From positions 83,414 to 147,413 of the forward strand of contig NZ_JAMBOH010000013.1 of NCBI RefSeq assembly GCF_023715505.1: a stretch of 64,000 nucleotides of DNA, given 5' to 3'. The stretch is from Neobacillus cucumis. GTDB lineage: Bacteria > Bacillota > Bacilli > Bacillales_B > DSM-18226. Positions 5,099-23,205 of this stretch are shown here, piece after piece. The position numbers and the translations under genes were made by a program. The stretch's first letter is position 1, and every line of letters starts with the position of its first letter. The notes below the pieces were generated by a model, which did no database searches, had not been told where the DNA came from, and saw nothing but the letters and a program-made list of their open reading frames with translations.

Positions 5099-5102
5099 TT
5101 CC

Positions 5103-6605: not shown

Positions 6606-6835
6606 CTGGCGCATGGCGGCCGATTTCTGGCGGATGGCGGCCGGTTTCTGGCGCATGGCGGCCGATTTCTGGCGATGGCGGCCGATTTCTGGCGCATGGC
6701 GGCCGGTTTCTGGCGCATGGCGGCCGGTTTCTGGCGCATGGCAGCCGGTTTCTGGCGCATGGCAGCCGGTTTCTGGCGCATGGCGGCCGGTTTCTGGCGC
6801 ATGGCGGCCGATTTCTGGCGCATGGCAGCTATTTA
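6606..6835. repeat. 21-bp minisatellite, ten full copies plus one degenerate copy
   Basis: Head-to-tail units of the form CTGGCGCATGGCGGCCGATTT. The variable positions are A/G in CCGATTT/CCGGTTT and G/A in GCGGCC/GCAGCC. The fourth copy lacks one C (20 bp), which shifts all reading frames; the last copy decays into GCAGCTATTTA. There are no spacers. The array is GC-rich in an AT-rich intergenic region and ends beside the prfB terminator. Confidence 0.95.
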
Positions 6836-6840
6836 CCGGC

Positions 6841-6879
6841 AAAAAAGCCTTTGCTGAGCAAATCGGCAAAGGCTTTTTT
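6841..6879 (-). terminator. Terminator of prfB
   Basis: GCCTTTGC and GCAAAGGC form an 8-bp stem, extended by flanking A/T pairs, with a T-run on either strand, so it could work in both directions. It starts four bases after the prfB stop. Confidence 0.9.
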
Positions 6880-6883
6880 ATGA

Positions 6884-7985
6884 TTATGAAATTCGTGAAC
6901 GCAAATAAGCATTAATGAATTGATCTAAATCTCCGTCCATAACACCCTGCACATTTCCACTTTCCGTATTCGTCCGATGGTCTTTTACCATGGAATAAGG
7001 ATGGAAGACATAGGAACGGATTTGGCTTCCCCAGCCAATTTCCTTCTGTTCGCCGCGGATTTCCAAAAGTTCTTGCTCCTGACGCTCAATTTCCAGCTGA
7101 TACAGCTTCGCTTTTAACATTTTCATCGCTGACTCACGGTTTTTAATCTGTGAACGTTCCGATTGGCAGGTCACGACAACTCCCGTTGGAAGATGGGTAA
7201 TCCGGACCGCCGAATCTGTTGTGTTGATATGCTGTCCACCTGCACCCGTTGCACGATACGTATCAATTTTTAAGTCCTCCGTACGGACTTCAACCTGAAT
7301 TTCTTCATTAAATTCAGGCATCACTTCGCAGGAAACAAATGAGGTATGACGCCGCCCTGAAGCGTCAAATGGCGAAATCCGGACAAGCCGGTGAACCCCT
7401 TTTTCTGCTTTCAAATAGCCATAAGCATTATGGCCTTTAATGGACAATGTGACACTCTTGATTCCTGCTTCATCACCAGGAAGATAGTCAAGTGTTTCCA
7501 CTTTAAAGCCCTTCTTCTCCGCCCAGCGGGTATACATCCGCAGCAGCATCGAGCCCCAGTCCTGTGATTCCGTCCCGCCGGCACCAGGATGCAGCTCAAG
7601 AATGGCATTATTTTTATCATATTCCTCACTTAAAAGGAGCTGAAGTTCAAACTGGCTTAAACGGCTTGTTAATTGTTCCAGCTCTTCTTCGAGCTCTGCC
7701 CTTAATTCCTCATCATTTTCTTCCTTGACAAGTTCGTAGGTTAGTTCAAGATTCTCATAGGAGTCATTTAACTCCATGAACTCGTTCACTTGATCTTTTA
7801 AAGCATTGGACTCGCTGATAACGGCTTGTGCCTTTTCCTGATTGTTCCAAAAGTCAGGATGGAGCATTTCATCATCTAGTTCAGCAATTCTGGCTTCTTT
7901 ATTTTCAAGGTCAAAGAGACCCCCTAAAGTCCGCTAATGTCTTAGCTGTTTTCTCAAGTTCATTCCGAATTTCTGCTAATTCCAT
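6884..7985 (-). CDS. prfB: Peptide chain release factor 2 (with programmed +1 frameshift)
   Basis: Release factor recognising UGA and UAA. It is read in two frames: 24 zero-frame codons from ATGGAATTAGCAGAAATTCG, an in-frame TGA at codon 25, then a +1 shift (CTT TGA C read as CTT GAC) into the main frame, giving 366 residues. The main frame carries the peptidyl-hydrolase motif [16 protein letters not shown] and the RF2-type region [13 protein letters not shown]. The start has GAGGTGAAG upstream. The downstream frame alone could be mistaken for a truncated protein starting MLHPDF. In B. subtilis prfB is downstream of secA on the same strand; here its upstream neighbour is a divergent SEC-C gene. 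Confidence 0.97.
7910..7925 (-). promoter_or_regulatory. prfB programmed +1 frameshift site
   Basis: The minus strand reads AGGGGGTCTCTTTGAC: an internal Shine-Dalgarno-like AGGGGG, the slippery CTT, then the UGA stop and C. This is the classical autoregulatory element by which RF2 senses its own level. The upstream peptide ends LADFRGSL, as in most RF2 leaders. Confidence 0.95.
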
Positions 7986-8279
7986 TTTCTTCACCTCTAT
8001 AAACATTAATCATTTACGTTTCTTTAATTAGTCAGTCCCTATCCATTATAGCGTGTTAACCTAAATAAATTCAAAATTTGGCCATTCGTCCCCATTTATT
8101 TTTCATAAATCACTCCATTAAAAATCATAAAAATCCATTAAATATCCTTAGTATTTATATATTTCATTGTGTCAAAGATGGTACTATTAAATAGGAATAA
8201 TCCGGATTTTAACCAGAACTTATACATACATAAATAACTACAGTACGGGAGCCAATTTATTGAGAAGGAGCAAAGGCAA

Positions 8280-10214
8280 ATGGAGAAAATAAATCGTAAT
8301 GAACCTTGTCCTTGCGGGAGTGGTAAAAAGTATAAAAAGTGCTGCGGAGCGAATGACGCCATTTCGATCACTGAGGTGCTTGTTAATGAAATAGAGGAGT
8401 TGCAAAAACAGTTCCTCCATTTTTCTTACTACCACTTTGGTCATGAAATAACTGAGGATTTTGAACTGCTTGAAGAGATGCTAGACATCGAAACAGACCA
8501 AGAACGGGAATTCTATGAAATGATTCATGCCGTATGGTTTTCCTTGTTTGAAGGGTTGGAGGACGGGGAAACCATTATTGAAAAATTCATTCATGCCGAA
8601 GCTGGTAAAATGAAACGTCCTAAATTAAGACATATTTTACAAACATGGACAGATGCAAGAACCATCGCAGGAAAAGTTTTGTCTATCGGCAATAACACAC
8701 TAACAATCGAAGACGGTTTCACCTCGGAACAACTTGAGGCCATTAATTTAACAGACTCCATTCAAGTAAAAGAAGGCTCGTTTTTTACGGGGATTCTGCT
8801 CCCATTTGAACATCAGTATGTATTTTTCCCAGCACCATTAGAACTGGAGGGACTCAAACCAGAGCTTGCTATTTCCTACATCGAGGAATCCAGTTTTGAG
8901 GAAGAGTACGACACACCTCAAGAGTATATGACAAATCTTTTTATGTTGGTGCTAAGCGAGCTGCCAATGGTTGGAAGTTTAGTGGAAGTCGACCAAATGG
9001 ATTGGCCCGCTCCTATTTACAAGGAAGTAGCAGATCTTTTTAAGGACAAGCTGCAAATGCAGCTGCCGCCACAAGTCTTAGATACAGGCTTGATTCTTTG
9101 GCATCATTTTTGTCAAAAGAAACAAAAGCGAATCCAAAATCCAAATATATATGTAGCCGCTCTTCATTATTTATTGGCAACGGTTGCTCCAATAGAATAC
9201 TTTACAAAAAAGGATCTGGCAAAACAATATGGGGTTTCAGCCGGAAGTATTTCGTCTGTTGTATCTGATTTAGAATTTGAATTAGCAGAAGAAATGACCG
9301 AGTTAATCGGGATCCTCCATGGGGAAGATGATGAGATCGAGACACCTCTCGTTAAAATAGCACCTGTGATAGAATTCCCAGTTAATAAGGCGGCTCGAGA
9401 TGCGAAGAAAACGGATAGCACCTCTACTGTTAAGACACTTCCAAGTGCTGCAGATAAGCACACGAAGAAAACCACCGTGCGGAAAGTATCAAGGCGTGAT
9501 GAGGAACATGCACGCAACTTGATTTATGACGCCTTCCAAACTGATGGTAAGCAGCGGTATAAATTGGCAGAAAAAGCGTTAAAGCTCAATCCGAATTGTG
9601 TGGACGCCTACGTAATTCTTGCCGAAAAAACTAAGAGCTTAGAGGAAGCGATATTATTATATGAAAAAGGAATCCAAGCCGGCGAGCGTGAGCTAGGAAA
9701 GAACTTTTTCAAGGAGAATAAGGGTTATTTTTGGGGATTGCTCGAAACAAGACCATTCATGCGGGCAAAACTTCATTATGCCGAGGCCCTTTCGGTTCTG
9801 GGTAAAATAGCAGAGGCAGCCCGGCAATACGAAGAATTGCTTGAATTAAATCCAATGGACAACCAGGGTGTACGCTATTCGTTGTTTGTTGCTTATATGG
9901 ATTTAGAAGACTTCGACAAGGCCCATGCGCTCCTTACACAATTTTATGAAACAAGTGCCCATGAATTATACAATAAGCTATTGCTAGAGGTCACTAAGCA
10001 CGGGTTTACAGCTAAGGCAGAGATGCTCTTGAAAGGTGCTAAAAAGGAAAACAAGTATGTGATTCCTTATTTAACCGGTAAAAAACGATTGCCTGCCTAC
10101 CCTCCTGATTTTTATGGTGTTGGGGATGAAAATGAAGCGATTGTTTATGCGGATATGCATTTGCATTTGTGGAGGAAGGTTGATGGGTTGGAGAAGTGGT
10201 TGAAGGGGAAATAG
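8280..10214 (+). CDS. SEC-C zinc-motif protein with C-terminal TPR region
   Basis: 644-residue cytoplasmic protein of unknown role. It opens with a SEC-C motif ([17 protein letters not shown], residues 6-22), almost the same as the SecA C-terminus, which in SecA binds zinc and SecB or ribosomes. The middle (about 30-390) has no recognised domain except a short HTH-like stretch ([20 protein letters not shown], about 305-325). After a Lys/Thr-rich linker come TPR-like helices (about 410-560) resembling bacterial homologues of the ST7 family ([27 protein letters not shown]). The start has GAGAAGGAGC upstream. It is divergent from prfB. The function is unknown; a link to translation or secretion is suggested only by the SEC-C motif. 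Confidence 0.85.
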
Positions 10215-10340
10215 ATTAGTTCGAAAAAACCTTCGAAGATTCATTTGGAATACTAGGAGGCTTTTCCCTACAGCAACCTACATTTACGTTTCATCAAATA
10301 TTCAGGCATTTTTATTCATACCTGGAGTTATTATATATAG

Positions 10341-10375
10341 AAAAATCGAGAGGTCGGAAACCTCTCGATTTTTCT
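10341..10375. terminator. Bidirectional terminator between convergent genes
   Basis: Near-perfect stem AAAAATCGAGAGGT / ACCTCTCGATTTTT around a short loop, with T-runs on both strands. It serves the SEC-C gene from the left and the octahaem cytochrome gene from the right, and touches the latter's stop codon. Confidence 0.93.
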
Positions 10376-12365
10376 ATGGAGTAATTATGGGTGAATGCAC
10401 AGCTTCGGTAAATGACTTGCTTTGACTATGACACTCTGAGCAAACCTGTGTACCACTCTTTGCATGGCCCGCCTTTACTGAATCGCTTGTAGCAATCAGT
10501 GATTGTCCATTTTCATCAAAAATAGCTTTTCCTGTTACACCGAAAATAATTGTTTTACCGTTGTGGCAAGTTAAACAATACTCTCTTTTCTTTTGATCCG
10601 TCCAATCATCGATTTTAGTTAAAGAAAATACCTGCTGATTTTCATGGCCCAGTTTTTCCTTTAATAAAAGTATATTTGTAGAAGCGTGCGTATCATGGCA
10701 TTCTGAGCATGGGAGCGAACCATTTAGTTTACTCCCGTCCAACGCGGTCAATTTATGCTGGGAATTACTATTAGTATAGTAGGTAAAAATATCTTTCGTG
10801 CCATCTTTAGATTGTTTTTCACTATTATGGCAAGTAAAACACAAGTTATAATCATCCACTTGTAAAACTTTATTTGTAACCCCATTTTTCACTTCTTCAG
10901 TTTCTGATATATTTCCAATCGCCGTAGTCTCTTGGCGGTAATGGAGGACATTATAACCACCACTGTTCTCCGCTAATGACTTATAGGAATATGTAAATCT
11001 ACCATGACAAGCTTCACACATCTGAACATTGCTGTCGATTTTACCTACTGGTTTCCCTTCCAAAGTATCTCCTGTTTTATGATCATATACATAATGATCA
11101 TTTAATAAATTAGGGTTGTCTTCACTCCAGGTTAGATGTGGATTATGACAGGCTGTACAGGACCCAGACTTCGGGTCGTGGTCGATAATCTTTTGTGTTT
11201 CGTGCTTGGATTTATTTCCTGAATCAAAATTCACCATTTTAGGTCCAGTTGTTCCATCATGGCAAGCCATACAGTAACCTTGGGCAATATCTTTATCTTC
11301 CAAACTACTATTTGCACCCTCGTGAGTATTATGGCAAATTGCACAGTTATTGACATTATTGTTGTACGCCCCGTGCGGCAGCTGTTGTAAATTAGTCATT
11401 TCTTGAACCGTGTATCCATTTATCGCGAAGTTTTTGGCTGCGCTGCTTACAGTCGTAAATTGCTTGGTAATGGAAAAGAACGGGTTATCCAAATTATCTA
11501 CTAGCTTTCTCGTACTATCACTATAATCAAGACTAATTAAGCTCGGGTTAAACCTTAAATAATAGGTTTCACCCGGATTAAGCGCCCCTTGATTAGTAAG
11601 TGTTATTTTGTTAGAAGGCGGTGTAAAGTTGACATCAAATGGAACTTCTTTTTGATTCTTATCATAGATGATAAAAGGATTATTATTGTTATCTATAGCA
11701 TTTGATAATGTATCACTAAGTTCAATTATAATCGTTTGATTTAACGAGACTCTGGTAATGACGTCTTTTTCTAAGATATTTACACTTGCAGTTACATCCT
11801 CTTCTTTATAGGGTTCAGGGCTTTCATAAACCTTCTGACGGTATTTAAAAACATTCATAGTAATTGATTGGATGTAGGGACGTTGAACAAAGATTTCCGA
11901 GATGTTATTTGATGCGTCGATTGCTTCTATTTTGTAATGATTGAGTTTTGCAGTAATGGCTGTTTTAAAAGACCAGTCCTCGGAGTTTGGAACTAATGGT
12001 TCTTTATGACCATCGGGATAGATTACGTTCATTGTTAATGGGTCAGTTGTTGGCTGATTGTCCGAAACCGTTCCTGTAACCGTAATTCCATCGCTTTTTA
12101 TGGTTATACTTTTTACAAATATCAAAGGCTTAACGGTATCCGCCACTGCTGTAGTTGCTTGAATTAGTTCAGGTCCATTAGGAGAGGCTGGCACTGTTTC
12201 TTCAACTGTAACAGGCGCAGTAGTTACTGTATTATCAACTGGAGAAGAGTTAGCTGCTGGTATCTGTTCTTCCGCAGATGTTTTTAAAGGAATAATGGTG
12301 GTTAGGAAAAAAATTATAAATACAATTAATATTGTATTTTTCTTACTAAGTTTGAATGGAGTCAT
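10374..12365 (-). CDS. Secreted octahaem c-type cytochrome with Ig-like N-terminal domains
   Basis: 663 residues. A signal peptide (1-31, ending KTSA) is followed by a Thr/Val/Ala linker, an Ig-like domain (about 80-165) and a second beta domain resembling Big_5 (about 190-305). The C-terminal half (341-655) holds eight CXXCH motifs: CAICH, CMACH, CTACH, CEACH, CFTCH, CSECH, CLTCH and CSECH, several followed by THxG or PH as in doubled-CXXCH families. No sortase motif or C-terminal anchor is visible, so attachment to the surface is unresolved. The HGxYxNN...CxxCHxTH opening of the haem region recurs in the neighbouring hexahaem protein, indicating related modules. A transcript of its own is likely: a terminator lies upstream and a promoter region with repeated TGTGAA sites precedes it. 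An electron-transfer role is inferred. Confidence 0.9.
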   Translation of the reverse strand: MTPFKLSKKNTILIVFIIFFLTTIIPLKTSAEEQIPAANSSPVDNTVTTAPVTVEETVPASPNGPELIQATTAVADTVKPLIFVKSITIKSDGITVTGTVSDNQPTTDPLTMNVIYPDGHKEPLVPNSEDWSFKTAITAKLNHYKIEAIDASNNISEIFVQRPYIQSITMNVFKYRQKVYESPEPYKEEDVTASVNILEKDVITRVSLNQTIIIELSDTLSNAIDNNNNPFIIYDKNQKEVPFDVNFTPPSNKITLTNQGALNPGETYYLRFNPSLISLDYSDSTRKLVDNLDNPFFSITKQFTTVSSAAKNFAINGYTVQEMTNLQQLPHGAYNNNVNNCAICHNTHEGANSSLEDKDIAQGYCMACHDGTTGPKMVNFDSGNKSKHETQKIIDHDPKSGSCTACHNPHLTWSEDNPNLLNDHYVYDHKTGDTLEGKPVGKIDSNVQMCEACHGRFTYSYKSLAENSGGYNVLHYRQETTAIGNISETEEVKNGVTNKVLQVDDYNLCFTCHNSEKQSKDGTKDIFTYYTNSNSQHKLTALDGSKLNGSLPCSECHDTHASTNILLLKEKLGHENQQVFSLTKIDDWTDQKKREYCLTCHNGKTIIFGVTGKAIFDENGQSLIATSDSVKAGHAKSGTQVCSECHSQSKSFTEAVHSPIITP

Positions 12366-12478
12366 GGTCGGTCTTCCTTTTTTTGCTTTGACATAAAAGC
12401 TATTTGAGGCTTCTAGATGTAGAAATATCTTTTAAGGTAAGTGGTTTTTCTAAGTTTTTATCTATAACCTACATTATT

Positions 12479-12568
12479 ATTATACTTTTATTAAAAAACT
12501 AATTGGGTAACAGAACTGTGAAGATAATTCGACAAAATTGTGAACCTAATAATTGACAGTATTGTGAA
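12479..12568 (-). promoter_or_regulatory. Candidate ResD-type promoter of the octahaem cytochrome gene
   Basis: On the minus strand a perfect TATAAT (12484 to 12479) has no good -35 hexamer at normal distance. Upstream are three evenly repeated TTCACA sites, read TGTGAA on the plus strand at 12517, 12539 and 12563, spaced 22 and 24 bp (about two helical turns). Two of them read TTGTGAA, close to the B. subtilis ResD consensus TTTGTGAAT. A poor -35 with phased upstream sites suits an activator-dependent promoter. Rex or Fnr were considered, but the sites are direct repeats, not palindromes. Confidence 0.55.
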
Positions 12569-12581
12569 CTTATGGTTCAAT

Positions 12582-12614
12582 TTAAATAAATAACAGCCCA
12601 CAGAAGTGAGCTGT
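12582..12614 (-). terminator. Terminator downstream of the hexahaem cytochrome gene
   Basis: Minus-strand stem ACAGCTCAC / GTGGGCTGT (one G-U pair) with a four-base loop, followed by TATTTATTT. It separates the hexahaem gene from the octahaem gene. Confidence 0.65.
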
Positions 12615-12643
12615 CATTTCGTTACTTAAATATTCCATTCAGG

Positions 12644-12679
12644 GCTATCAAATAGTGGGGCTATTTGGTAGCTTTTTTT
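12644..12679 (+). terminator. Plus-strand terminator-like hairpin at the end of the hexahaem cytochrome gene
   Basis: GCTATCAAATAG and CTATTTGGTAGC form a 12-bp stem with one G-U pair and a five-base loop, followed on the plus strand by seven T. In that orientation it would block antisense transcription; on the minus strand it is only a 3'-end hairpin. Confidence 0.6.
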
Positions 12680-14588
12680 AATAGTCAGTAATACCGTTAC
12701 GATCTGTATCTACACCAGGTGTTGGGTTGTATTGGTAAGAGTCGGTATTTCTTGTACCACCAGAGTGGGAAGAAGTATGACATCCCCAACATACAGCCAT
12801 GTTAGTGTAACGTTTTAATGCAGAGTCTGGGTTTTTGTCGATTAGATAATCTTTAACTAAAGCTTCACGTTGAGAGTTATCAGCACCAGTTGTTGCATTG
12901 TATGGTTTTGAAGTGAAGTAGTTTGATCCACCATTTAGTCCTTTTAAGATATCATTGTAAGTTAAACCACAGGCATCGCGCATGATTGTTACGTCCGTAC
13001 CGTGTGCATAGTGACAGCGTACGCAAGTGTAGCTATCAGAATTTGTAGTATGGCGATAAGCATGATCAAATGTACCAGTTTTTTGACCAGAAGAAGCAAG
13101 GTAATCAGTGTGACAAGAAGCACACCATGTAGATATTGCTACACCATTACCTGAAATGTATTTTGCATTTTGGCTATTCCATAATGCAGATACATCAGTA
13201 GTAATTGTGTTTTTAGAAGCATCGTCAACAGTTTTTGCGAATTTGACTACATAACCACGAGCAATATTACCAGTTGTAACACTATTAACAGCAGCTTTTA
13301 ATTCGCTGACCTTAGTATATTTAGTTGAGTCATCTCTTACCCCTAAGAATCCTTTGCCTAAAATTTCACCGTTTTTCAAGCTATCAGTATGGACTATATC
13401 GATAAGCTTACCATCAAAATTCCCGTCTTCATTATAAGTAGTGGTATTGGTTGGGTCGGTATTTTGGAATACTGAACCATCATAGAATGCAGTCCAATAG
13501 TGTTTAGTATGAGACGAGTCAAAATCATATTCATGTAAAAATGGATCTTGAACACTTACATATTTTCCTTCTCCAGTATCTTTTCCATCATGATCTAGAG
13601 TTGGAACCCATTTCATTAATTGTAGTACTACATCACCGGATTGCAATCCAGCTTCGTTATAATAGTTAACAGGGCCATCAACCCATTTTTTTGTAACAGG
13701 ATCTTTTACTAAATTTTTGTTAGTAGGTTGTACAGTGTCTCCAATATTAAAACGGAAAACGATATAGTTTTCAGTATGACTAGTACCTGTAGCATCTGAA
13801 TATGTTACATTTGCACCCGTACCAGTGTATTTAGTAGTCAAGTTGGCTATATCATCCTTGTCAATTACAGGAACACCTTCTAGTTTTTTACCACCATCTT
13901 CAATAAGGGTGTTACCCATTCCGTTTGGATCTTCATGCAATAAACGGTCAGAATAAGAACCGTGTGGTGCGTGACAGTTTGCACAAGTGAATTCTTCTGT
14001 CCATTCTCCGCCTACTCCAGCAATTTCTTTATTATTTCCACCAGGAGCTGCACTTAATTTAACAGATCCATTAGCTAAGTGGGCAGACATGTTACCATCA
14101 TGAGTTCCGCCAAAAGTACCAGCAGAGTTAGAACCAGCTCCCATTACGTTATAAAAGCCTAATGTACCATCATGGCATGCAGTACAAGTTGCATATTCAC
14201 CGTCTTTAAACAATAAACCTTCAGATGCACCAGTATGTGTTTGGTGGCAGCTGGCACAAGAGTTAGTATTGTTCATGTACTCGCCGTGTGTACGTTGTGT
14301 TCCGTGTGAACCATCTGTTCCTTTAACTATATCATCAGATTTAATAACATCACCAAAAGTAGTTCCATCATTAGTCCCTACTTTAGAACCAGTTTGGTTG
14401 GCGTTACTTTTGTTAACAGTATTATAGTTATTATCTCTACCTTCATCAGTTGTTTGGACTCCTGCCTTAACACCACCAGTGTCACTTGGTTGTGTGCCAG
14501 TACTGCCAGCAGCAGAAGCCACAATGCTAAACATTGCTAATAACATTAATGTTAGCAGGAACGAAAAGCTTAATTTAATCTTACTCAT
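12678..14588 (-). CDS. Secreted hexahaem c-type cytochrome
   Basis: 636 residues with a signal peptide (1-26, ending VASA) and a Gly/Asn/Thr-rich stretch up to about residue 105. Six CXXCH motifs follow: CASCH (from 111), CTACH, CANCH near the N-terminal side, then CASCH, CVRCH and CWGCH near the C-terminus. The two groups are separated by about 280 residues without haem motifs, rich in Thr, Asp and Gly, which could be a beta-rich or binding domain. Many extra His residues could serve as second axial ligands. No wall anchor was seen. It is the last gene of the group starting at the decahaem gene, 116 bp after the NHL gene. A terminal surface reductase or electron-relay role is inferred. Confidence 0.88.
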   Translation of the reverse strand: MSKIKLSFSFLLTLMLLAMFSIVASAAGSTGTQPSDTGGVKAGVQTTDEGRDNNYNTVNKSNANQTGSKVGTNDGTTFGDVIKSDDIVKGTDGSHGTQRTHGEYMNNTNSCASCHQTHTGASEGLLFKDGEYATCTACHDGTLGFYNVMGAGSNSAGTFGGTHDGNMSAHLANGSVKLSAAPGGNNKEIAGVGGEWTEEFTCANCHAPHGSYSDRLLHEDPNGMGNTLIEDGGKKLEGVPVIDKDDIANLTTKYTGTGANVTYSDATGTSHTENYIVFRFNIGDTVQPTNKNLVKDPVTKKWVDGPVNYYNEAGLQSGDVVLQLMKWVPTLDHDGKDTGEGKYVSVQDPFLHEYDFDSSHTKHYWTAFYDGSVFQNTDPTNTTTYNEDGNFDGKLIDIVHTDSLKNGEILGKGFLGVRDDSTKYTKVSELKAAVNSVTTGNIARGYVVKFAKTVDDASKNTITTDVSALWNSQNAKYISGNGVAISTWCASCHTDYLASSGQKTGTFDHAYRHTTNSDSYTCVRCHYAHGTDVTIMRDACGLTYNDILKGLNGGSNYFTSKPYNATTGADNSQREALVKDYLIDKNPDSALKRYTNMAVCWGCHTSSHSGGTRNTDSYQYNPTPGVDTDRNGITDY

Positions 14589-14704
14589 TCCAAAAAACCT
14601 CCCATGTAACTCTCTCTTTTTGTGTTTCTCTCTCTTTTTTGATCTAGCCTATGAAAAAACATTCAACCTTATTTTCAGCACCACCTCCTTAATATAAAGA
14701 TAGT

Positions 14705-15670
14705 TTAATAGTATAACGCCACACGTTGATTTAACGTATCGGTAATATATACCCGGTCATTATCATCAACATATAAACCATTTGGAAGGTAGAACTGTTC
14801 GTTTTGGTCTCCCATTGACCCAAACGTAAAGACTTGCTCGCCTTTTTCATTAAAACCATAAATCGTATGAGATAAATTGTTTACCACATAGAGGACACCT
14901 CTTGAATCAACACCAATTCCACGTGGATTAACAAACACAGAAGATCCTTTTCCGTCTTTTGATCCATTAATAGTTCGTAGATATTTTCCTTTTTTATCAT
15001 AAGCTAAAACTCTTTGATTTCCGGAATCACACACAAACAGTTCATCTGTTTTCTTATCTAAAGCAATTGCATTCGGAGCTTTAAATGTATCGTCTTTCGT
15101 TACAGCAGTACTAATTTCTTGAAGCTTTTCACCGGATAGTTTATAAACAAATACCTTGTTTTGTTGTACATCTGTTACATATAATTTTTCATCAAAGATT
15201 CTAATTCCAGCAGGAGACTTTATTAGTTTTTCTTTATCATCAAAGTATTTAATAAATTTACCTTTTGAATCAAATATAGAGATTTTTCCGTTATATAAAT
15301 CTGCCACATAGACTTCGCCTTTTTTATCACCAGCAATCCCATATGGAAATTTAAACTCACCTTTTCCTTCTCCTTCTTTACCAAACATGAAGACTCGGGT
15401 TCCTGAAGTATCAAAAACTTGAACCCTCTTATTATTGGTATCGGAAACATAGATAAATTCTCCAATTTTGGCTACATCCATTGGTTTATCTAATGCATTA
15501 TTAAAGTCACCGTAAATAAGCTGGCTAAAGGTTGGAGGTGAATTGGGATCAATCACATTCGATGCCTTTTTTACAGTTGATTCCATATTCAAGAAATAGA
15601 TGGCAGTAAACGCTGCAATTACTAGAATCACAATCCCGCCCATCCACATGTATACGGTTTTCTTTTTCAT
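14705..15670 (-). CDS. Membrane-anchored NHL-repeat beta-propeller protein
   Basis: 321 residues: Lys-rich N-terminus and one membrane segment (about 7-27), then an outside-facing six-bladed NHL propeller with repeats such as YVSDTNNKRVQVFD, YVADLYNGKISIFD, YVTDVQQNKVFVYK, FVCDSGNQRVLAYD and YITDTLNQRVALYY. There are no haem motifs or catalytic residues. NHL proteins often accompany multihaem cytochromes in metal-reducing bacteria, where they are thought to assist assembly or docking; the same is inferred here. It lies 20 bp after the TPR gene and is probably co-transcribed with it. Confidence 0.87.
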   Translation of the reverse strand: MKKKTVYMWMGGIVILVIAAFTAIYFLNMESTVKKASNVIDPNSPPTFSQLIYGDFNNALDKPMDVAKIGEFIYVSDTNNKRVQVFDTSGTRVFMFGKEGEGKGEFKFPYGIAGDKKGEVYVADLYNGKISIFDSKGKFIKYFDDKEKLIKSPAGIRIFDEKLYVTDVQQNKVFVYKLSGEKLQEISTAVTKDDTFKAPNAIALDKKTDELFVCDSGNQRVLAYDKKGKYLRTINGSKDGKGSSVFVNPRGIGVDSRGVLYVVNNLSHTIYGFNEKGEQVFTFGSMGDQNEQFYLPNGLYVDDNDRVYITDTLNQRVALYY

Positions 15671-15690
15671 TGGTCTTCACCCCTTGTTAG

Positions 15691-16398
15691 CTATTTTTTT
15701 CCGATTCTTTTGAGACCTTCTAAGGCTGGTTTGTACATTGGGTCGTAATTTAATGCGTCTTTGTAGATTTCTTCAGCATTCTTTTTATCACCTTGGTCTT
15801 CAGCTACACGACCAATTTCAAAGAGAATGTCAGTATTTCCTGGCATTAGTTTATTAGCTTCATTTAATGCCTCAATCGAATCGCTGTACATCTTTAGCTT
15901 CCGATATGACATACCTTTTAAAAGAAATCCTTTATAGTCTTTAGGTGATATTTCCGTTGCCTTTTGGGCCATTTTCACAGAGTCATTTAGTCGATTTTCT
16001 TTGTTATAAACAAGCCCAAGGTTGAAATAGGCATCGAAATAATTTTTATCTAAATCTATCGCCATCTTGTATTGTTTAATGGCTTCGTCGTTATCACCAT
16101 TTAAAAAATAGGCATAACCCAGTGATACATAAGATTTGGGGTCATTAGGCTTCTGATCAACAGAATCTTTTGCACTTTCTAACTGCTGTTTAAGCTGATC
16201 CTTATCATAACCCGACCATAAGTACTTACTGCTTACATAGTAGCCAGCACCTACTGAAATAACTAATGTCAGAGTTAAAAGGAGAAGTGTTTGCCACCAT
16301 TTAAATTTTTCATTTTTCAACTTCTTTTTCTTCTTTTCAGGTTCTTGTTTTGTACGTGTCTCTTGTTCTTGACTGAGTGGTTGTTCTTGAGCTTCCAT
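15691..16398 (-). CDS. Membrane-anchored TPR protein
   Basis: 235 residues: a cytoplasmic Lys/Glu-rich tail, one membrane helix (about 35-57, LLLLTLTLVISVGAGYYV), then four to five TPR units (about 75-230) with typical spacing, e.g. PKSYVSLGYAYFLNGDNDEA and YFDAYFNLGLVYNKENRLND. The arrangement recalls the TPR domain of CcmI/NrfG factors that present apocytochrome for haem attachment, but Bacillus uses the ResBC (system II) pathway, so that role is only a guess. Between the dodecahaem and NHL genes with short spacings (34 and 20 bp), it is presumably an accessory protein of the cytochromes. Confidence 0.85.
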   Translation of the reverse strand: MEAQEQPLSQEQETRTKQEPEKKKKKLKNEKFKWWQTLLLLTLTLVISVGAGYYVSSKYLWSGYDKDQLKQQLESAKDSVDQKPNDPKSYVSLGYAYFLNGDNDEAIKQYKMAIDLDKNYFDAYFNLGLVYNKENRLNDSVKMAQKATEISPKDYKGFLLKGMSYRKLKMYSDSIEALNEANKLMPGNTDILFEIGRVAEDQGDKKNAEEIYKDALNYDPMYKPALEGLKRIGKK

Positions 16399-16432
16399 AC
16401 GAACCCTCCTAATCTAGCAATATTCCTATCTA

Positions 16433-17596
16433 TTATTTATGGCAGGCGGTACATTTATTTTTGACGTGACAGGTATAACAATACTCCGTGACACTCTGTT
16501 TTTCAGCGAGCGGGACAGGATGTCTTTGTTTATCAAACCCTTTGTGCATCGCAGGGTGACAGGATGAGCAAGCAACCATAGAGGTGCTTATACCACCTGC
16601 TTGTTGGTAACTATGACACGCCAAACATTCCTGTTTATCTTTTGATGCTTGATTGCCATGCTCCTTCATCCAACTACTACTGTGACTTTCAGGACGTTTG
16701 CTATGGCAATCTTTACAGAATGTGTTTTCCTTTGCATAGTCGTATTGGCCCTTTGTATTCTGAGTTGTAACTTGACCCTTATTTAGATACTTTGTTACTG
16801 TAGGTATATCCTCATATCCCTCAAGCGGAACAGATGACATATCCTTATGGCATTGATTACACTTTTGTAAATTAGCAGCGGCTTGTTTGCCGTGTATCTT
16901 CGTTGCAAAATCTTCCTTTTTATGACTTTTTGGAACCATTCCCGTTTTATGGCAAGCGCTGCATTCTGTTGTTACTTTACGGGCCTTATGACATTCAATA
17001 CAGGTATCCATATCTGGCCTGATGAATTTAATATCAGCCATTGCTGCTGTTCCGACTTGGCTATCCCATTTGTCAAGGTCTGTTGAGTAAGTCATTTTTC
17101 GATCAGCCACTTTTCCGTGGGCGACTCCACTATGACATTGGACACATTCGACACCTTTATTTTCATGTTTGTCATGGGGAATAATGATATCCCCCGAAGG
17201 TGTTACGTCCCTAGTTAGCACGTCATGACAAGATTCACATGCACTATTTGGTATCTCATTAGGCATTCGTATTGGTGCAGCTGAAGTGCCTGTTGATTGC
17301 TTTTTCAATTGCGCCACTAATTCTTGGGTCTTATCTTTCGCTAAATCCGTATACACTCCGTCAGTATGACAACTAGTACATTCAACCTCACTATGTGTGG
17401 AAGCTTTCCACGTATAATACTCCGGTTTCATCTCGTGGCAGGATGAGCATACCTTTGAGCTAGAGGTTGTTTCTAGTCCGAAAAATCCGGCAAAGGATAA
17501 TAGGACTAGAAACAACAGTGTTAAAGTGGCAATTTTAATCAATTTATACCGAAGTTTTGGAGGGGTCGGCAGCTCTTGCTTGTGCTCCTCTTCCAT
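16433..17596 (-). CDS. Membrane-anchored dodecahaem cytochrome with NapC/NirT-like N-terminus
   Basis: 387 residues with one N-terminal membrane helix (about 18-40) and twelve CXXCH motifs: CSSCH, CTSCH, CESCH, CVQCH, CIECH, CSACH, CNQCH, CKDCH, CLACH, CSSCH, CYTCH and CTACH. The opening VCSSCHEMKPEYYTWKAS matches the NapC/NirT quinol-dehydrogenase signature. It shares order and local motifs (MxTCIxCH, PKSHK, FCxxCHSxRPxxH) with the decahaem protein 26 bp upstream, so the two are paralogues. Likely role: taking electrons from menaquinol and passing them outward across the wall. The very high haem density (one per 32 residues) is unusual for a Bacillaceae protein. Confidence 0.92.
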   Translation of the reverse strand: MEEEHKQELPTPPKLRYKLIKIATLTLLFLVLLSFAGFFGLETTSSSKVCSSCHEMKPEYYTWKASTHSEVECTSCHTDGVYTDLAKDKTQELVAQLKKQSTGTSAAPIRMPNEIPNSACESCHDVLTRDVTPSGDIIIPHDKHENKGVECVQCHSGVAHGKVADRKMTYSTDLDKWDSQVGTAAMADIKFIRPDMDTCIECHKARKVTTECSACHKTGMVPKSHKKEDFATKIHGKQAAANLQKCNQCHKDMSSVPLEGYEDIPTVTKYLNKGQVTTQNTKGQYDYAKENTFCKDCHSKRPESHSSSWMKEHGNQASKDKQECLACHSYQQAGGISTSMVACSSCHPAMHKGFDKQRHPVPLAEKQSVTEYCYTCHVKNKCTACHK

Positions 17597-17622
17597 AAAA
17601 GCGACCCTCCTTTGTGGTTTAA

Positions 17623-19035
17623 TTAGTTATTTACTGCAGACTTAAAGCCGGTTCTATGACAATATTGGCAATAGACATCTGTAGCTGCTTTTGGAGTCGT
17701 TGAACCTGCGGCAGGTTTTTGATTATCATGGCAAACGAAGCATTCAGATTTTTGCTCTGCTGTTAATGCCTTTTTAGCGTGTCCTGTTAACCATTGATTG
17801 CTTTCACCGTGTCCGGATGGGCGGTCTGAATGGCAGGCGCTGCAGAACTTATTAATCCGTGCTTGCTCTTTAACCACATTTAGGTTTGGCACGTATTTTG
17901 TTTTTATCTCTTTCATTTTAAGGAGTGAAATAATATCTTCTTTCGGGATTTCTCTTACCCACTTAGAATCTTGGTGGCAGTTCACACACTTATCTACATG
18001 TTGAATCGCTGTCTTTCCATGGTTTCCATTCCAACCTTCCACTTTGTGACTCTTTGGTACCTTAATCTTTTTATGACAAGTTTCGCAGGCCATGGACAGC
18101 TTAACGTCTTTTTGCTGCTTACCAATTGCTTGAAGGATGATGTCTTGTGTTTTTTGATCGTGCGCCGCTAATGCAGCTGCATCTGTTTCATTATTGGCTG
18201 TTTCTGTTTTTACCGTATCAGTGGCATCTGTTGCAGTTGTTGCTTCACCTGATGATGTATTTTTGTTTTCCTCAAGTTTCTTCTCTACCTCTTCAGGGTT
18301 TTGTGGTACGTTGTATGAATCTTCCTTCCAAGGTTTCACCCCGTTATTTACTTGGTCATGACAATTAATACAGGTACCCATGTTAGGTCTCAAGTATTTT
18401 TCTTCCATTAACTTTTCGGCACTTGCCTGTGTCCAATCACCGCGAACATCTTCTGTATTGATTCCTCGAGAGGCCATTTTCGCGTGAACGACACCAGAGT
18501 GACAGGTAATACAAGGGATGCCCTCCTCAATATGGCCTTTGTGATTAACCTTTAAGTCTCCTGAGGCGGTAACCAGACGGTTTTTAGAGTGACATTGTAA
18601 ACAGTTCTGACTTGAAACTGCTTCTTCTTCAGTTTGAACAATTTGTGTTGGTACTCCTGTTACGTGATAGTAAACTTCTTTCAACGACTTCATTTTGTGT
18701 GTCAGCATATTAACCGTACCGGGTTTAATGTGACATTGAACACAGGAAATCTGGTTGTGGGCACTAGCTGTATAAGATGTATATTCAGGCTGCATTTCAT
18801 GACAGCTGGAACAGAATGACGGTGAATTGGTAAAGGAAAGCACCCCATATCCTCCGCCAAAAATAACTATACAACCAACTAGTGAAACAAATAATAACTT
18901 CCATCTATTAACTGGGTTCTTCCAATCAATGGTTCTGAACTTTTGCCAGAGTTTACGTATTAGGCCCGTCCTTTTTCTTTTTTCTCTAGATTCGGGATCT
19001 GTTTCTCTATTTTTCTTTTTCCCCCAAATGGCCAC
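17623..19035 (-). CDS. Membrane-anchored decahaem cytochrome with NapC/NirT-like N-terminus
   Basis: 470 residues: a basic cytoplasmic N-terminus (1-45), one membrane helix (about 47-68), then ten CXXCH motifs (CSSCH, CVQCH, CLQCH, CITCH, CINCH, CETCH, CVNCH, CSACH, CFVCH, CQYCH). SFCSSCHEMQPEYTSYTASAH is the NapC/NirT-type start. An insert of about 70 residues rich in Glu, Thr and Asn (about 225-295) without haem separates haems 5 and 6 and is not in the dodecahaem paralogue. It heads the minus-strand block with short spacings downstream. A TTTGTGAAT site lies about 100 bp upstream. Role: probable quinol oxidation and electron relay. Confidence 0.92.
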   Translation of the reverse strand: MAIWGKKKNRETDPESREKRKRTGLIRKLWQKFRTIDWKNPVNRWKLLFVSLVGCIVIFGGGYGVLSFTNSPSFCSSCHEMQPEYTSYTASAHNQISCVQCHIKPGTVNMLTHKMKSLKEVYYHVTGVPTQIVQTEEEAVSSQNCLQCHSKNRLVTASGDLKVNHKGHIEEGIPCITCHSGVVHAKMASRGINTEDVRGDWTQASAEKLMEEKYLRPNMGTCINCHDQVNNGVKPWKEDSYNVPQNPEEVEKKLEENKNTSSGEATTATDATDTVKTETANNETDAAALAAHDQKTQDIILQAIGKQQKDVKLSMACETCHKKIKVPKSHKVEGWNGNHGKTAIQHVDKCVNCHQDSKWVREIPKEDIISLLKMKEIKTKYVPNLNVVKEQARINKFCSACHSDRPSGHGESNQWLTGHAKKALTAEQKSECFVCHDNQKPAAGSTTPKAATDVYCQYCHRTGFKSAVNN

Positions 19036-19137
19036 TTAACTCACCCTTCCCATTTCGGACTTTTTATCTATTTATTTTCCATATTAACCTCTCTAAAGGT
19101 AGTATCTAACATTGCAAGAGTATATTCCAATGTACAA

Positions 19138-19146
19138 TTTGTGAAT
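19138..19146 (+). promoter_or_regulatory. ResD-like site upstream of the cytochrome block
   Basis: The plus strand reads TTTGTGAAT, identical to the published B. subtilis ResD-binding consensus. It lies in the 523-bp spacer between the divergent decahaem gene and secA, nearer the cytochrome side. The same core recurs three times before the octahaem gene. Single short matches are common in AT-rich DNA, so weight comes only from the repetition. Confidence 0.45.
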
Positions 19147-19184
19147 ATTTTTTCATACTTCCCTAGGTTGAGTTTACACCTAAA

Positions 19185-19204
19185 AACAACATAAAAATGT
19201 TGTT
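19185..19204. repeat. Perfect inverted repeat upstream of the cytochrome block
   Basis: AACAACAT-AAAA-ATGTTGTT, 8-bp arms around a 4-base centre. It could be an operator or a small hairpin. The rest of the spacer, about 520 bp in all, is AT-rich and shows no convincing gene. Confidence 0.5.
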
Positions 19205-19451
19205 ATCTAAAGGTTTCATTAATACTACGATTGTGATGTTAAATGATAAATCTATGTATTTTTATAAATATATAGTTGTTTTTATGCAATTTTTATTCAC
19301 CATTAGGTATAATTACCTTTCCTTTCAGCTAAATGCCATCAGTCTGTCATAATTGACAGAAAATCGAATCCTTGGCACCGCTTTATTAGTAGTTCGATGA
19401 TAGATAATATATAATAGTAGAATCACCATTTTTACACTGTTTTTAACATTG

Positions 19452-19480
19452 TTGTCACTGTAATGAGTAAATGGTAAGAT
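19452..19480 (+). promoter_or_regulatory. Candidate SigA promoter of secA
   Basis: TTGTCA (5/6 to the -35 consensus), a 17-bp spacer, then TAAGAT (4/6 to the -10), about 80 bp before the secA start. No other good pair was noticed in the same orientation. Confidence 0.45.
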
Positions 19481-19558
19481 GAAAAGGAAAATTATCGAAC
19501 ATTTTGACATGAATTTTTTTTTGTGAATTAGTCTCAGATAAAGGAGCGTTCATCAGGT

Positions 19559-22069
19559 ATGGGGATTTTAAATAAAGTATTTGATTTGAACAAACGCGAA
19601 CTAAAACGGTTAGACAAGCTGGCTGCCAAGATTGACGAGCTTGCAACCGAAACAGAAAGATTAACAGATGATCAGCTTCGCGAAAAAACAGAAGAATTTA
19701 AAGCGCGCTATCAAAAAGGCGAAACACTTGATGACTTGCTTGTAGAAGCATTTGCGGTTGTCCGTGAAGGTGCCCGCCGTGTACTTGGCTTATATCCATA
19801 CCACGTTCAGTTAATGGGTGGTATTTCTCTACATGAAGGTAACATTTCCGAGATGAAGACTGGTGAGGGTAAAACCTTAACAGCGACCATGCCCGTTTAC
19901 TTAAATGCCCTTTCTGGCAAGGGTGTTCACGTTGTTACCGTCAATGAATACTTGGCTAGCCGTGACGCCACGGAGATGGGCCAGTTATACGAATTTTTAG
20001 GTCTTACTGTTGGCTTGAACCTTAACAGTATGGATAGTGAAGAAAAGCAGGCCGCCTATGCTGCTGATATTACCTATGGAACCAACAACGAATTTGGCTT
20101 TGACTATCTTCGTGACAATATGGTCCTTTATAAAGAGCAAAAAGTTCAGCGCCCGCTTTTTTATGCGGTCATTGACGAAGTTGACTCCATCTTAATTGAT
20201 GAAGCCCGTACACCTTTGATTATCTCAGGTTCAGCACAAAAATCAGCTGCACTCTATATCCAAGCCAATGCGTTTGTTAGGACGCTGACAAAAGATGTGG
20301 ATTACACTTATGATGAGAAAACGAAGGGCGTTATGCTCACAGAAGAAGGGATTAGTAAATCGGAAAAAGCATTTGGTATTGAAAACCTCTTTGATATGGC
20401 GCATGTTACCTTAAACCATCATATTAATCAGGCATTAAAAGCGAATGTCAGCATGCACCTTGATGTCGACTATGTCGTGCAAGACGGCGAAATTGTCATC
20501 GTTGACCAATTTACTGGCCGTTTGATGAAAGGGCGCCGCTATAGCGAAGGCCTGCATCAAGCGATTGAAGCAAAAGAGGGACTCGAAGTTCAAAATGAAA
20601 GCATGACAATGGCAACCATTACGTTCCAAAACTACTTCCGTATGTATGAAAAATTGGCTGGTATGACCGGTACAGCGAAAACGGAGGAAGAAGAATTCCG
20701 TAACATCTATAATATGAATGTTATTGTGATCCCAACGAACCGGCCAATCGCCCGTGATGACCGTGCCGATTTAATTTACGCTACTATGGACGGCAAATTC
20801 CGTGCGGTTGTCGAGGATATTGCAGAACGCCATCAAAAAGGACAACCTGTTTTGGTTGGTACTGTGGCCATTGAAACATCAGAATTGATTTCAAACTATT
20901 TATCTAAAAAAAGGATTCCGCATAATGTCTTAAATGCGAAAAACCATGAACGTGAAGCGGAAATTATTGCTGAAGCAGGCCATAAGGGCGCGGTTACGAT
21001 TGCGACCAACATGGCAGGCCGTGGTACGGACATTAAGCTTGGTGAAGGTGTCATCGAACTAGGCGGCCTTGCTGTGATTGGTACCGAGCGTCACGAAAGC
21101 CGGCGGATTGATAACCAGCTCCGTGGACGTTCTGGGCGTCAAGGGGACCCTGGTATTACTCAGTTCTACTTATCAATGGAAGACGAATTGATGCGCCGCT
21201 TTGGCTCTGACAATATGAAAGCCATGATGCAAAGACTTGGTATGGATGATACCCAGCCAATTCAAAGTAAAATGGTCTCCCGTGCTGTTGAATCTGCACA
21301 AAAACGGGTTGAAGGGAACAACTTCGATGCCCGTAAACAGCTTTTACAATATGACGATGTACTTCGTCAGCAGCGTGAAATTATTTACTCACAACGTGAT
21401 GAAGTATTAGAATCTGAAGACCTGCGCGAGATCGTTCAAAAAATGATACTAAATTCGATTCAGCGTAATGTGGAGGTCCATGCCCCTCGCCATGAGGATG
21501 AGGAAGAATGGGATCTTCAAGCGATTATCGAATATGTGCAGGCCACCCTTCTTCATGAAGGTGATATGACGATAGATGACCTAAAAGGCAAAGAGCCGGA
21601 AGAGATGGTTGAAACGATTTTTGCAAAAGTCAGGGAGCGCTATGAGGAAAAAGAACAGATTCTGTTCCCTGAACAAATGCGTGAATTTGAGAAGGTTGTC
21701 ACGCTAAGAGCGGTTGACTCTAAGTGGACGGACCATATCGACGCGATGGATCAGCTTCGTCAAGGAATTCATTTGCGTGCTTATGGACAAATTGATCCGC
21801 TTCGTGAATACCAGCATGAAGGTTTCGCGATGTTTGAAGCGATGATACAATCGATCGAAGATGAAACGGCGATGTATATCATGAAGGCAGAAATTCGCAA
21901 TAACCTTGAGCGTCAAGAGGTGGCTAAAGGTCAAGCGGTGAACCCGAAGGAAGATGGCGAACCTGTTAAGCAGAAGCCAAAAGTGAAGCAGCTTGATGTG
22001 GGACGTAATGCCCCATGTATCTGCGGCAGCGGAAAGAAGTATAAGAACTGCTGTGGAGCGGGGAAATAA
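19559..22069 (+). CDS. secA: SecA preprotein translocase ATPase
   Basis: 836-residue motor of the Sec pathway, which pushes unfolded preproteins through SecYEG. The start has AAAGGAGC upstream. It shows Walker A GEGKT (102-106), the DEAD-type box [19 protein letters not shown], the second nucleotide-binding fold ([24 protein letters not shown]), scaffold and wing helices, and the C-terminal zinc-binding tail [13 protein letters not shown]. Length is normal. Strand is unusual: hpf on one side and prfB on the other are both minus, whereas in B. subtilis all three are co-oriented and secA-prfB are adjacent. A copy of the dispersed repeat starts directly after the stop. Confidence 0.98.
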
Positions 22070-22070
22070 T

Positions 22071-22208
22071 AAGAAAAGCGCAAGCGCCTTGGTCAGCCCC
22101 GACAAGCACAAGACGAGCCGGCCGAAAGGTTGCTCTTTAACCTTTTGGACGGATTGGCTTGTGACCTCGAGGGGCTAGGCGCTGGAGCTGGACAATTTTC
22201 GAAGTCAA
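22071..22208. repeat. Dispersed palindromic intergenic repeat, copy 3
   Basis: Short form of the family, beginning at the secA stop (TAA then GAAAAGCGCAAGCGCCTTGG) and ending GGAGCTGGACAATTTTCGAA. The flank AGTCAAAAACATTTATACTT that follows is also present after the copy near 48.3 kb, so the unit or its target extends further right than the palindrome. Confidence 0.88.
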
Positions 22209-22236
22209 AAACATTTATACTTTCTTATCTTTCAAG

Positions 22237-22362
22237 AAAAGTGCAAGGCGCCCGCCTATCGGCGACAAGCATAACACGAGCCGGCCGATAGGTTGCTTTT
22301 TAACCTATTGGACGGATTGGCTGTAGACCATGAGGACTTGGCGCTGGAGCTGGACACGCCTC
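22237..22362. repeat. Dispersed palindromic intergenic repeat, copy 4 (diverged)
   Basis: In tandem with copy 3. It keeps the ends (GAAAAGTGCAAGGCGCC and GGCGCTGGAGCTGGACA) and the inner hairpin, here GGCCGATAGGTT/AACCTATTGGAC. Compensating changes on both arms (CGAAAGG to CGATAGG, CCTTTTGG to CCTATTGG) show selection for base-pairing or concerted change. Confidence 0.85.
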
Positions 22363-22391
22363 TAAGATTTTTATTATTTCTTATATTTATT

Positions 22392-22426
22392 AGAGGCCAG
22401 CAATGTGGTGCTGGCCTCTTTGTTTT
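22392..22426 (+). terminator. Terminator of secA
   Basis: AGAGGCCAGCA / TGCTGGCCTCT, an 11-bp perfect stem with a six-base loop, then TTGTTTTC. It lies after the two repeat copies. Confidence 0.9.
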
Positions 22427-22461
22427 CTAAAACACCATCAATCCCCAATCTTTTTCGCAAT

Positions 22462-22569
22462 TTATCCACAAACTTCAGAAAATATAATTAACTCCTGTGG
22501 TTAATGTGTATAACTATTCAGAATTTTGTGGATAAACATGATTATAAAGAGTTATCCCCATGTGGATAA
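22462..22569. promoter_or_regulatory. Cluster of DnaA-box-like nonamers
   Basis: Four exact TTATNCACA matches in 108 bp: TTATCCACA at 22462 (plus) and its reverse-strand forms TGTGTATAA at 22505, TGTGGATAA at 22527 and TGTGGATAA at 22561; a fifth, TTATCCCCA at 22552, has one mismatch. The last two form a perfect inverted repeat (AAAGAGTTATCC / GGATAACTCTTT). The spacing resembles the DnaA-box clusters found away from oriC in Bacillus, which titrate DnaA. No replication gene is nearby, so oriC is not suggested. Confidence 0.6.
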
Positions 22570-22618
22570 CTCTTTATTTCTTTTGAAAGTTTTAGTCTTC
22601 TCGTAAATTTGCTATTAC

Positions 22619-22654
22619 AAAAACACTGCTCCAGTCACCCGGAGCAGTGTTTTT
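22619..22654 (-). terminator. Terminator of hpf (bidirectional)
   Basis: ACACTGCTCC / GGAGCAGTGT, a 10-bp perfect stem with an eight-base loop and T-runs on both strands, ending two bases from the hpf stop. Confidence 0.92.
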
Positions 22655-22656
22655 TA

Positions 22657-23205
22657 TTATTGTGCCTCAATTAAGCCGTAGCGGCCATCTTTACGCTTGT
22701 AGACAACATTAGTACGGTTAGTATCTGAATTTGTAAAGACATAGAAGCTGTGGCCAAGCATGTTCATTTGCAGGATCGCTTCTTCACTGTCCATTGGTTT
22801 CAAATCAAAACGCTTCGTCCGGACTAATTCAAGATCTTCTTCAGCATAATCGTGAGTTTCAGGGCTTTCAGGTGCTGTAAACGTGAAAGATAGTTCCCCT
22901 TTTTCACGGAATTTACGGTTTACTTTTGTTTTATGTTTGCGTATTTGACGCTCAAGCTTGTCGGTGATTAAATCGATCGCCGCATACATATCAATGTTTG
23001 TTTCTTCAGCACGTAAGACTAATTGCTGCAGTGGAATAGTGACTTCTACTTTTGACGATTTATCTTGATTGAATCTTAGATTCACGTTTACCTTTGCATC
23101 AGGTGCTTCAGTAAAATAACGCTCTAATTTAGAAATTTTCTTTTCAACATACTCTCTAATTGCTGGAGTAACCTCAATGTTTTCGCCACGTACGTTGTAT
23201 TTCAT
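22657..23205 (-). CDS. hpf: Long-form ribosome hibernation promoting factor
   Basis: 182-residue HPF (YvyD). The N-terminal S30AE domain (about 1-100; MKYNVRGENIEVTPAIREYVEKK) binds in the 30S decoding region and the C-terminal domain (about 125-180; MDSEEAILQMNMLGHSFYVF) dimerises to make inactive 100S ribosomes. AAGGAGGAG precedes the ATG. Upstream are overlapping SigB- and SigH-like elements, as known for B. subtilis yvyD. Its normal neighbour secA lies beyond two repeats and in opposite orientation. Confidence 0.97.
   Translation of the reverse strand: MKYNVRGENIEVTPAIREYVEKKISKLERYFTEAPDAKVNVNLRFNQDKSSKVEVTIPLQQLVLRAEETNIDMYAAIDLITDKLERQIRKHKTKVNRKFREKGELSFTFTAPESPETHDYAEEDLELVRTKRFDLKPMDSEEAILQMNMLGHSFYVFTNSDTNRTNVVYKRKDGRYGLIEAQ

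Follow-up and report, generated by a model that had tools for sequence, protein, structure and literature searches.

The closest described counterparts of the system considered here come from Thermincola. In the chain proposed for Thermincola ferriacetica and T. potens (ImdcA, PdcA, CwcA, OcwA), electrons start at the membrane decahaem ImdcA, and the hexahaem CwcA has been modelled on OmcS as a polymer that crosses the wall; recombinant CwcA could not be kept soluble, from which the authors read the presence of polymers (PMC7911101). OmcS itself forms a filament in which 11 of the 12 axial histidines of a subunit are its own and 1 comes from the neighbor (PMC6584659). The iron clusters of Dethiobacter alkaliphilus contain a CymA-like quinol oxidase together with NHL, TPR and secreted multihaem proteins (PMC10376724), and a hexahaem group with no assigned function has been noted in various Firmicutes (PMC7829351). 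A 2026 review describes cytochrome filaments solved from Geobacter and two archaea, and a search of its available text for the terms Gram-positive, Firmicutes, Bacillota and monoderm returned nothing (PMC12954529). Here we describe a block of six genes on the minus strand of a 64,000-nucleotide stretch of the Neobacillus cucumis genome (contig NZ_JAMBOH010000013.1; hereafter the window). On balance we think it probable that this block encodes a dedicated anaerobic electron-export module, in which polymerization of a secreted hexahaem cytochrome is a probable step. Among the papers listed in literature searches for such systems in Bacillaceae or Neobacillus, no title or abstract opening concerned this cluster, which is not proof of absence.

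A preliminary description of this DNA had reported six minus-strand open reading frames with 10, 12, 6 and 8 haem motifs, 36 in total, and had assigned them to two NapC/NirT-like membrane cytochromes, a TPR protein, an NHL protein and two secreted cytochromes. All six frames were found at the same coordinates (Table 1), and a script returned the same CXXCH counts. When the residues of the four cytochromes were shuffled 1000 times, they jointly retained a mean of 0.14 motifs and a maximum of 2, and elsewhere in the window CXXCH is present in only two other stop-to-stop frames of at least 60 residues, one motif apiece. The assignments agree with Pfam, which finds a NapC/NirT domain at the N-terminus of both membrane cytochromes, NHL and TPR repeats, and doubled-CXXCH domains in both secreted cytochromes, and with hydropathy, by which every one of the six products has a single hydrophobic segment close to its N-terminus. 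D470 and C387 also match NrfH (2j7a for D470, E 1.6e-11; E 2.8e-7 for C387) and, like NrfH and NapC, combine this N-terminal domain with an anchor and a CXXCHxM motif at the first haem, but they have 10 and 12 haems where NrfH and NapC have 4, and the block has no NrfA.

Table 1. Features of the cytochrome block and of its intergenic regions, in window positions.
Feature	Position	Strand	Basis
Promoter-like element TATTCACAAATTGTACATTGGA...TGTTAGATACT, 47 bases, ahead of the 10-haem gene	19101..19147	-	Locus comparison
10-haem membrane-anchored NapC/NirT-type cytochrome (D470)	17623..19035	-	10 CXXCH; PF03264 E 2.8e-25; GTG start
12-haem membrane-anchored NapC/NirT-type cytochrome (C387)	16433..17596	-	12 CXXCH; PF03264 E 5e-17
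TPR protein	15691..16398	-	PF13181 and other TPR models; hydrophobic segment 37-57, TPR repeats C-terminal to it
NHL beta-propeller protein, N-terminal anchor	14705..15670	-	PF01436 E 5.8e-28; hydropathy
Secreted hexahaem cytochrome (B636)	12678..14588	-	6 CXXCH; signal peptide-like N-terminus (hydropathy)
Two strong stem-loops between the hexahaem and 8-haem genes	12588..12675	.	Stems of 14 and 16 pairs
Secreted 8-haem cytochrome (A663)	10374..12365	-	8 CXXCH, first at residue 341; PF09699, PF22113

To place the block among its relatives, the GTDB genome collection was scanned with peptide patterns of the hexahaem. This yielded 60 loci from Bacillaceae, Desulfosporosinus, Thermincola- and Dethiobacter-labelled genomes and further Bacillota; because the loci were found through the hexahaem, counts of gene order are conditional on it. 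The 12-haem, TPR, NHL and hexahaem genes occur in that order on one strand in 53 of the 60 (the count is of order alone, the strands having been read separately). Among the exceptions, one has all three partners and a hexahaem truncated by a contig end (L055), one consists of a 3.5-kb contig on which the hexahaem is split in two (L060), one has little sequence upstream (L056), one has its partners on the opposite strand (L057) and three have no partner in the stretch examined (L037-L039). A comparison with Bacillaceae genomes and with known extracellular electron transfer clusters had been proposed in the preliminary description; the order of the module recurs in Thermincola-labelled, Desulfosporosinus and Dethiobacter-labelled genomes. 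Two features of monoderm multihaem electron-transfer clusters of the Thermincola and Dethiobacter kind are present: secreted multihaem proteins shared with these same three groups, whose genera are known for iron reduction, and a membrane-anchored NapC/NirT-type multihaem, seen here from its domain (PF03264) and from the matches to NrfH.

The 10-haem gene stands immediately ahead of the 12-haem gene in 38 of the 60 loci (Bacillales, Desulfosporosinus and two further Bacillota). Among Bacillaceae loci such a NapC/NirT gene usually precedes the module and an 8-haem gene usually follows it, with an A663-type gene downstream of the hexahaem in most of them. In the Dethiobacter-type loci L053 and L054, genes for 17-haem proteins lie next to a further 12-haem NapC/NirT-type gene, upstream of the cassette. 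The cassettes closest to that of the window are in Bacillus sp. ISL-18, Neobacillus drentensis JC05 and N. cucumis, with SecA 96-97% identical, which places the host in Neobacillus.

Such systems had been called rare in Bacillaceae, and for this branch that is wrong. With a threshold of E<=1e-30, members of the hexahaem family are present in at least 80 of 193 genomes in the GTDB family of N. drentensis, although in at least 7 of 397 genomes sampled from its order; the corresponding figure for genomes sampled from its phylum is at least 25 of 398. All three counts are lower bounds, at most 7 candidates per genome having been scored for the family and at most 3 for the order and for the phylum. 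In 14 further loci of related Bacillaceae (L093-L106), one to four compact hexahaem frames occupy the slot of B636, two or more of them in 11 of the 14; these loci were chosen for short repeated profile matches and the tandem counts are not those of a sample.

That the four genes vary as a unit is seen from their sequence identities. We considered the 34 loci, the window excluded, that carry SecA and all five genes from the 10-haem gene to the hexahaem, tandem-hexahaem loci being represented by one copy. When loci are compared in pairs, the identities of the 12-haem, TPR, NHL and hexahaem proteins are correlated with one another (r 0.76-0.94) and little with those of SecA (r 0.13-0.27), whereas the 10-haem protein follows SecA (r 0.78) rather than the four-gene block (r 0.14-0.32). 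With SecA controlled, none of 2000 permutations reached the observed value for any of the six pairs within the block. For the 10-haem protein against the 12-haem, TPR, NHL and hexahaem proteins the partial r values are 0.17, 0.05, 0.07 and 0.08, and 1, 220, 90 and 128 of 2000 permutations were as high; on these values a weak tie of the 10-haem gene to its immediate neighbor remains. Linkage alone fails to explain the co-variation of the block, since the neighboring 10-haem gene is not part of it. C387 is, from these correlations, the first gene of the co-varying module. The preliminary description had placed all six genes in one block; the core of the block consists of the four that vary together, while the 10-haem gene tracks SecA.

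A single comparison makes the same point. L005 and L025 share 99% identity in SecA and 95% in the 10-haem protein, whereas their 12-haem, TPR, NHL and hexahaem proteins are only 56, 44, 53 and 43% identical. In a tree of the joined 12-haem, TPR and NHL proteins (69 rows, LG+G4, a quick method that gave long-branch warnings), 48 of 49 Bacillales rows fall in a single clade (99), within which several allele groups are mixed across species; L029 lies outside this clade on a long branch. L030 carries two copies of the TPR, NHL and hexahaem genes. The simplest reading of these patterns is that recombination exchanges the four-gene block between relatives, although the same picture would arise if old paralogues had been lost differentially. 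As a separate observation, three closely related genomes have a second 10-haem NapC/NirT-type gene across secA (L005 963-2291, L025 920-2242, L040 2-1021), of which the copy in L040 runs off the end of the locus with seven motifs visible.

The hexahaem B636 has six CXXCH motifs, and these and histidines 101, 118, 170, 209, 513 and 529 are kept in 178-179 of 179 relatives, these rows having been picked by the first-haem motif, which includes H118. Alignments made without that filter (114 rows; 93 compact and related rows) agree on the six further histidines, which are invariant among the compact relatives. Six motifs with six further conserved histidines would be enough for bis-histidine ligation of all haems. 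B636 also shares with OmcS of Geobacter sulfurreducens (6ef8, 6nef) the number of haems and the form CXXCHXXH at haems 1, 3 and 5. Between haem motifs 3 and 4 lies a large and variable stretch, with a spacing of 287 residues in B636, against 99 in OmcS and, among the compact proteins, 92 in P0198. The compact Bacillaceae frames are 339-445 residues long, compared with 407 for the OmcS chain, the 445-residue frame having eight motifs and one undetermined base. In N. cucumis DSM 101566 (L003 10001-11632) the hexahaem is broken, with five motifs, a stop and the remainder in a separate piece.

Profiles of the family were compared with solved structures. Profile A3 combines 38 members (compact, Thermincola-type and shorter ones). 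It matches OmcS with E 6e-8 over a single stretch, OmcS 121-405, that spans haems 3-6, and matches 7tfs, which we take to be OmcE, with E 1.5e-4. The score of A3 against OmcS 121-405 is 40.2 bits, and none of 2000 shuffles with cysteines and histidines fixed scored as high (maximum 21.5). In the same test no shuffle among 500 was as high with profile A2 (whose alignment was built on window positions 12678-14585, with the start codon dropped and numbering one lower) or with profile A4. By profile the hexahaem family is distantly related to OmcS, at the level of the family and beyond the haem motifs. The two differ in that B636 belongs to a monoderm host, has 12-haem, TPR and NHL partners, and is known here from sequence, whereas OmcS is known as a filament.

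Several results weigh against an electron-export module with a polymerizing hexahaem. B636 alone finds no OmcS match among the solved structures, nor does profile A1, and A2 matches OmcS at E 0.15 only; in the A3 search OmcS is outranked, through three short pieces, by 6r2q, presumably MtrA (the database lists the chain under another name). When the other three cytochromes of the block were put through the shuffle test with three profiles, A663 exceeded all shuffles (0 of 500 each), D470 nearly all (0, 5 and 4 of 500 as high), and C387 was matched by 350, 359 and 304 of 500, and therefore the test separates C387 but not A663 from OmcS and is not fully specific. AlphaFold models with predicted local distance difference test scores (pLDDT) of 75 and 70 matched no cytochrome fold. 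In the literature we found no experiment on a member from Bacillaceae. Mesobacillus subterraneus MER TA 170 carries the cluster (L027), and the species was reportedly described, in the title of a 2002 paper by Kanso, as iron- and manganese-reducing, which gives a hint to the acceptor at the level of the species, but because the same genome has NrfA its anaerobic respiration is not explained by the cluster alone.

Comparison with the chains introduced above shows both likeness and difference. A membrane decahaem and a secreted hexahaem are likewise proposed across the wall in Thermincola (PMC7911101), and the T. ferriacetica hexahaem P0136 belongs to the family of B636 (41% identity over 287 columns, best segment B636 23-302) and is a candidate for CwcA (Tfer_0075/TherJR_1122). 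No protein of the OcwA type was identified in the Neobacillus block, the Bacillaceae add the adjacent 10-haem gene and the 8-haem gene, and no 10-haem gene was seen directly ahead of the module in the Thermincola-labelled loci. The Dethiobacter-labelled loci L054 and L059 have the same 12-haem/TPR/NHL/hexahaem order; the D. alkaliphilus clusters additionally contain homologues of MtoA, one of Otr, and flavoproteins, and the passages of PMC10376724 on which we draw do not describe the four-gene module as a unit. NHL proteins (UetHI) also stand beside the extracellular tetrahaem UetA in the Uet cluster, which, unlike the present block, is based on a porin and tetrahaems (PMC10734462).

The region ahead of the 10-haem gene contains an element that is conserved between loci. 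It was found by comparing loci, and shuffles made for it do not remove shared descent. It is present at -84 to -119 of the 10-haem gene in 31 of 33 secA-linked loci, the window included, and has diverged in L019. A genome-wide scan with its first 21 bases, allowing up to 3 mismatches, gave exactly one match per genome in 5 of the 6 searched, always 93 to 112 bases ahead of the 10-haem gene, and no match in the M. subterraneus genome; a reversed control pattern gave 2 matches, both in one genome. The element may resemble ResD and Fnr sites, and its reverse strand a ResD site in particular, AAANNNTTCACAA being present in 23 of the 33 intergenic stretches and at the element in 21 of these. Because the element is conserved and is confined to this operon in the scan, one dedicated, perhaps anaerobic, predicted promoter is suggested. 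A search for Fnr boxes in the window was uninformative, with 36 matches at up to 2 mismatches against 27 expected, and 5 of 100 shuffles reaching 36.

These observations can be assembled into a working scheme. Transcription would start at one conserved putative promoter ahead of the 10-haem gene. The 10-haem or the 12-haem NapC/NirT cytochrome, or both, would oxidize membrane menaquinol, as their domains suggest, D470 being a probable menaquinol oxidase, and their haem chains would hand the electrons to the secreted hexahaem. The latter would probably stack head to tail to form a conduit through the peptidoglycan. Their co-inheritance with it suggests that the membrane-anchored TPR and NHL proteins assemble or dock that particular hexahaem, the former probably in assembly and the latter probably in assembly or docking. 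Electrons may reach an acceptor outside the cell by way of the 8-haem protein, to which other species add further tandem hexahaems; this acceptor would most likely be Fe(III) or Mn(IV) minerals, humics or some different extracellular compound. A663, of which about 340 N-terminal residues are free of haem, is a probable outer partner or acceptor-facing protein and, since hexahaem profiles score it far above its shuffles, perhaps a distant paralogue of the hexahaem. A route from menaquinol through the membrane cytochromes to secreted cytochromes and the surface had already been put forward in the preliminary description; it fits the domains, the topology and the relatives, as a predicted function. 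We regard electron export across the wall as quite likely, while for a polymer of the hexahaem, considered separately, the chances fall slightly short of even. More tentative is the broader proposal that OmcS-related wall polymers exist in Bacillaceae and that a matched four-gene module is exchanged whole between relatives at a single fixed site on the chromosome, much as surface-polymer loci are.

A different account of the hexahaem departs from this scheme in one step: electrons would be exported in the same way by hexahaems that are monomeric or loosely networked, and the kinship with OmcS would reflect distant descent only. We consider this rather unlikely, and confidence in it overlaps with confidence in the scheme above. 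It agrees with the distance of the OmcS match, with the large variable stretch between haems 3 and 4 and with the structure predictions, which yielded no match to an OmcS-like fold. Multihaems that form no filament pack their haems in the same way (PMC12954529), and neither such packing nor kinship is therefore proof of a filament. The conservation of all six further histidines, the tandem hexahaem copies in relatives and the co-inheritance of the TPR and NHL proteins nevertheless speak against monomers, as does the insolubility of recombinant CwcA in the reading of its authors (PMC7911101). If instead electrons flowed inward, from Fe(II) or minerals, or were used on another external substrate such as a selenium, sulfur or chromium compound, the same proteins might be employed. 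This we judge improbable, although the direction of electron flow cannot be read from sequence. Multihaems of Dethiobacter have been seen both when Fe(III) is reduced and when Fe(II) is oxidized (PMC10376724), and Mesobacillus includes selenate reducers (PMC12016495); against this reading, Pfam lists no molybdopterin or other catalytic oxidoreductase domain in the block.

The main alternative named in the preliminary description was nitrogen-oxide respiration, in which the membrane cytochromes would feed a reductase for nitrite, NO or N2O and the secreted ones would carry its electrons. The NapC/NirT domains would suit it, the genome of OS1-33 (L040) has narG, nirK, norB, nosZ and nrfA (PMC13199352), and NrfA is present in 5 of 10 cluster-bearing genomes. 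Yet the motif script found no CXXCK in the block proteins, and there is no PF02335 (NrfA) among the Pfam matches of the six. Of the 10 cluster-bearing genomes, 5 also lack PF02335, namely those of N. drentensis JC05, ISL-18, N. cucumis, UNC438CL73TsuS30 and Desulfosporosinus sp. BG, which include the three closest relatives; NrfA is the nitrogen-oxide reductase that was searched. Further, another strain of N. drentensis is described as having nirK pseudogenes and accumulating nitrite (PMC13199352), yet in JC05 all six genes are open. These results weaken the alternative to the point where we consider it very improbable.

The flanks of the block are ordinary. As read from the sequence, secA lies on one side and a SEC-C/TPR protein and prfB on the other, followed by ftsX and ftsE. 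Beside prfB, window positions 6606-6826 hold 10.6 copies of a 21-bp (base pair) unit at 95% identity, open in several frames on both strands, which reads as a mini-satellite and not as a gene. A second repetitive region, at 27344-27900, consists of nested tandem repeats with periods of 21, 137, 158 and 295 bp and is rich in TTCCGCC. Rfam gave no matches within window positions 5000-23000. Any role for the two stem-loops between the hexahaem and 8-haem genes is a guess, because the total of 8 in the scan is close to the shuffled mean of 6.3.

If the broader proposal of a module exchanged whole is true, common soil spore-formers would have in their type of wire a surface trait that can be swapped. 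The co-inherited partners point to candidate assembly factors, and a facultatively anaerobic Neobacillus candidate should be easier to grow than Thermincola. As a whole, the findings suggest that a group of bacilli common in soil is able to respire outside the cell.

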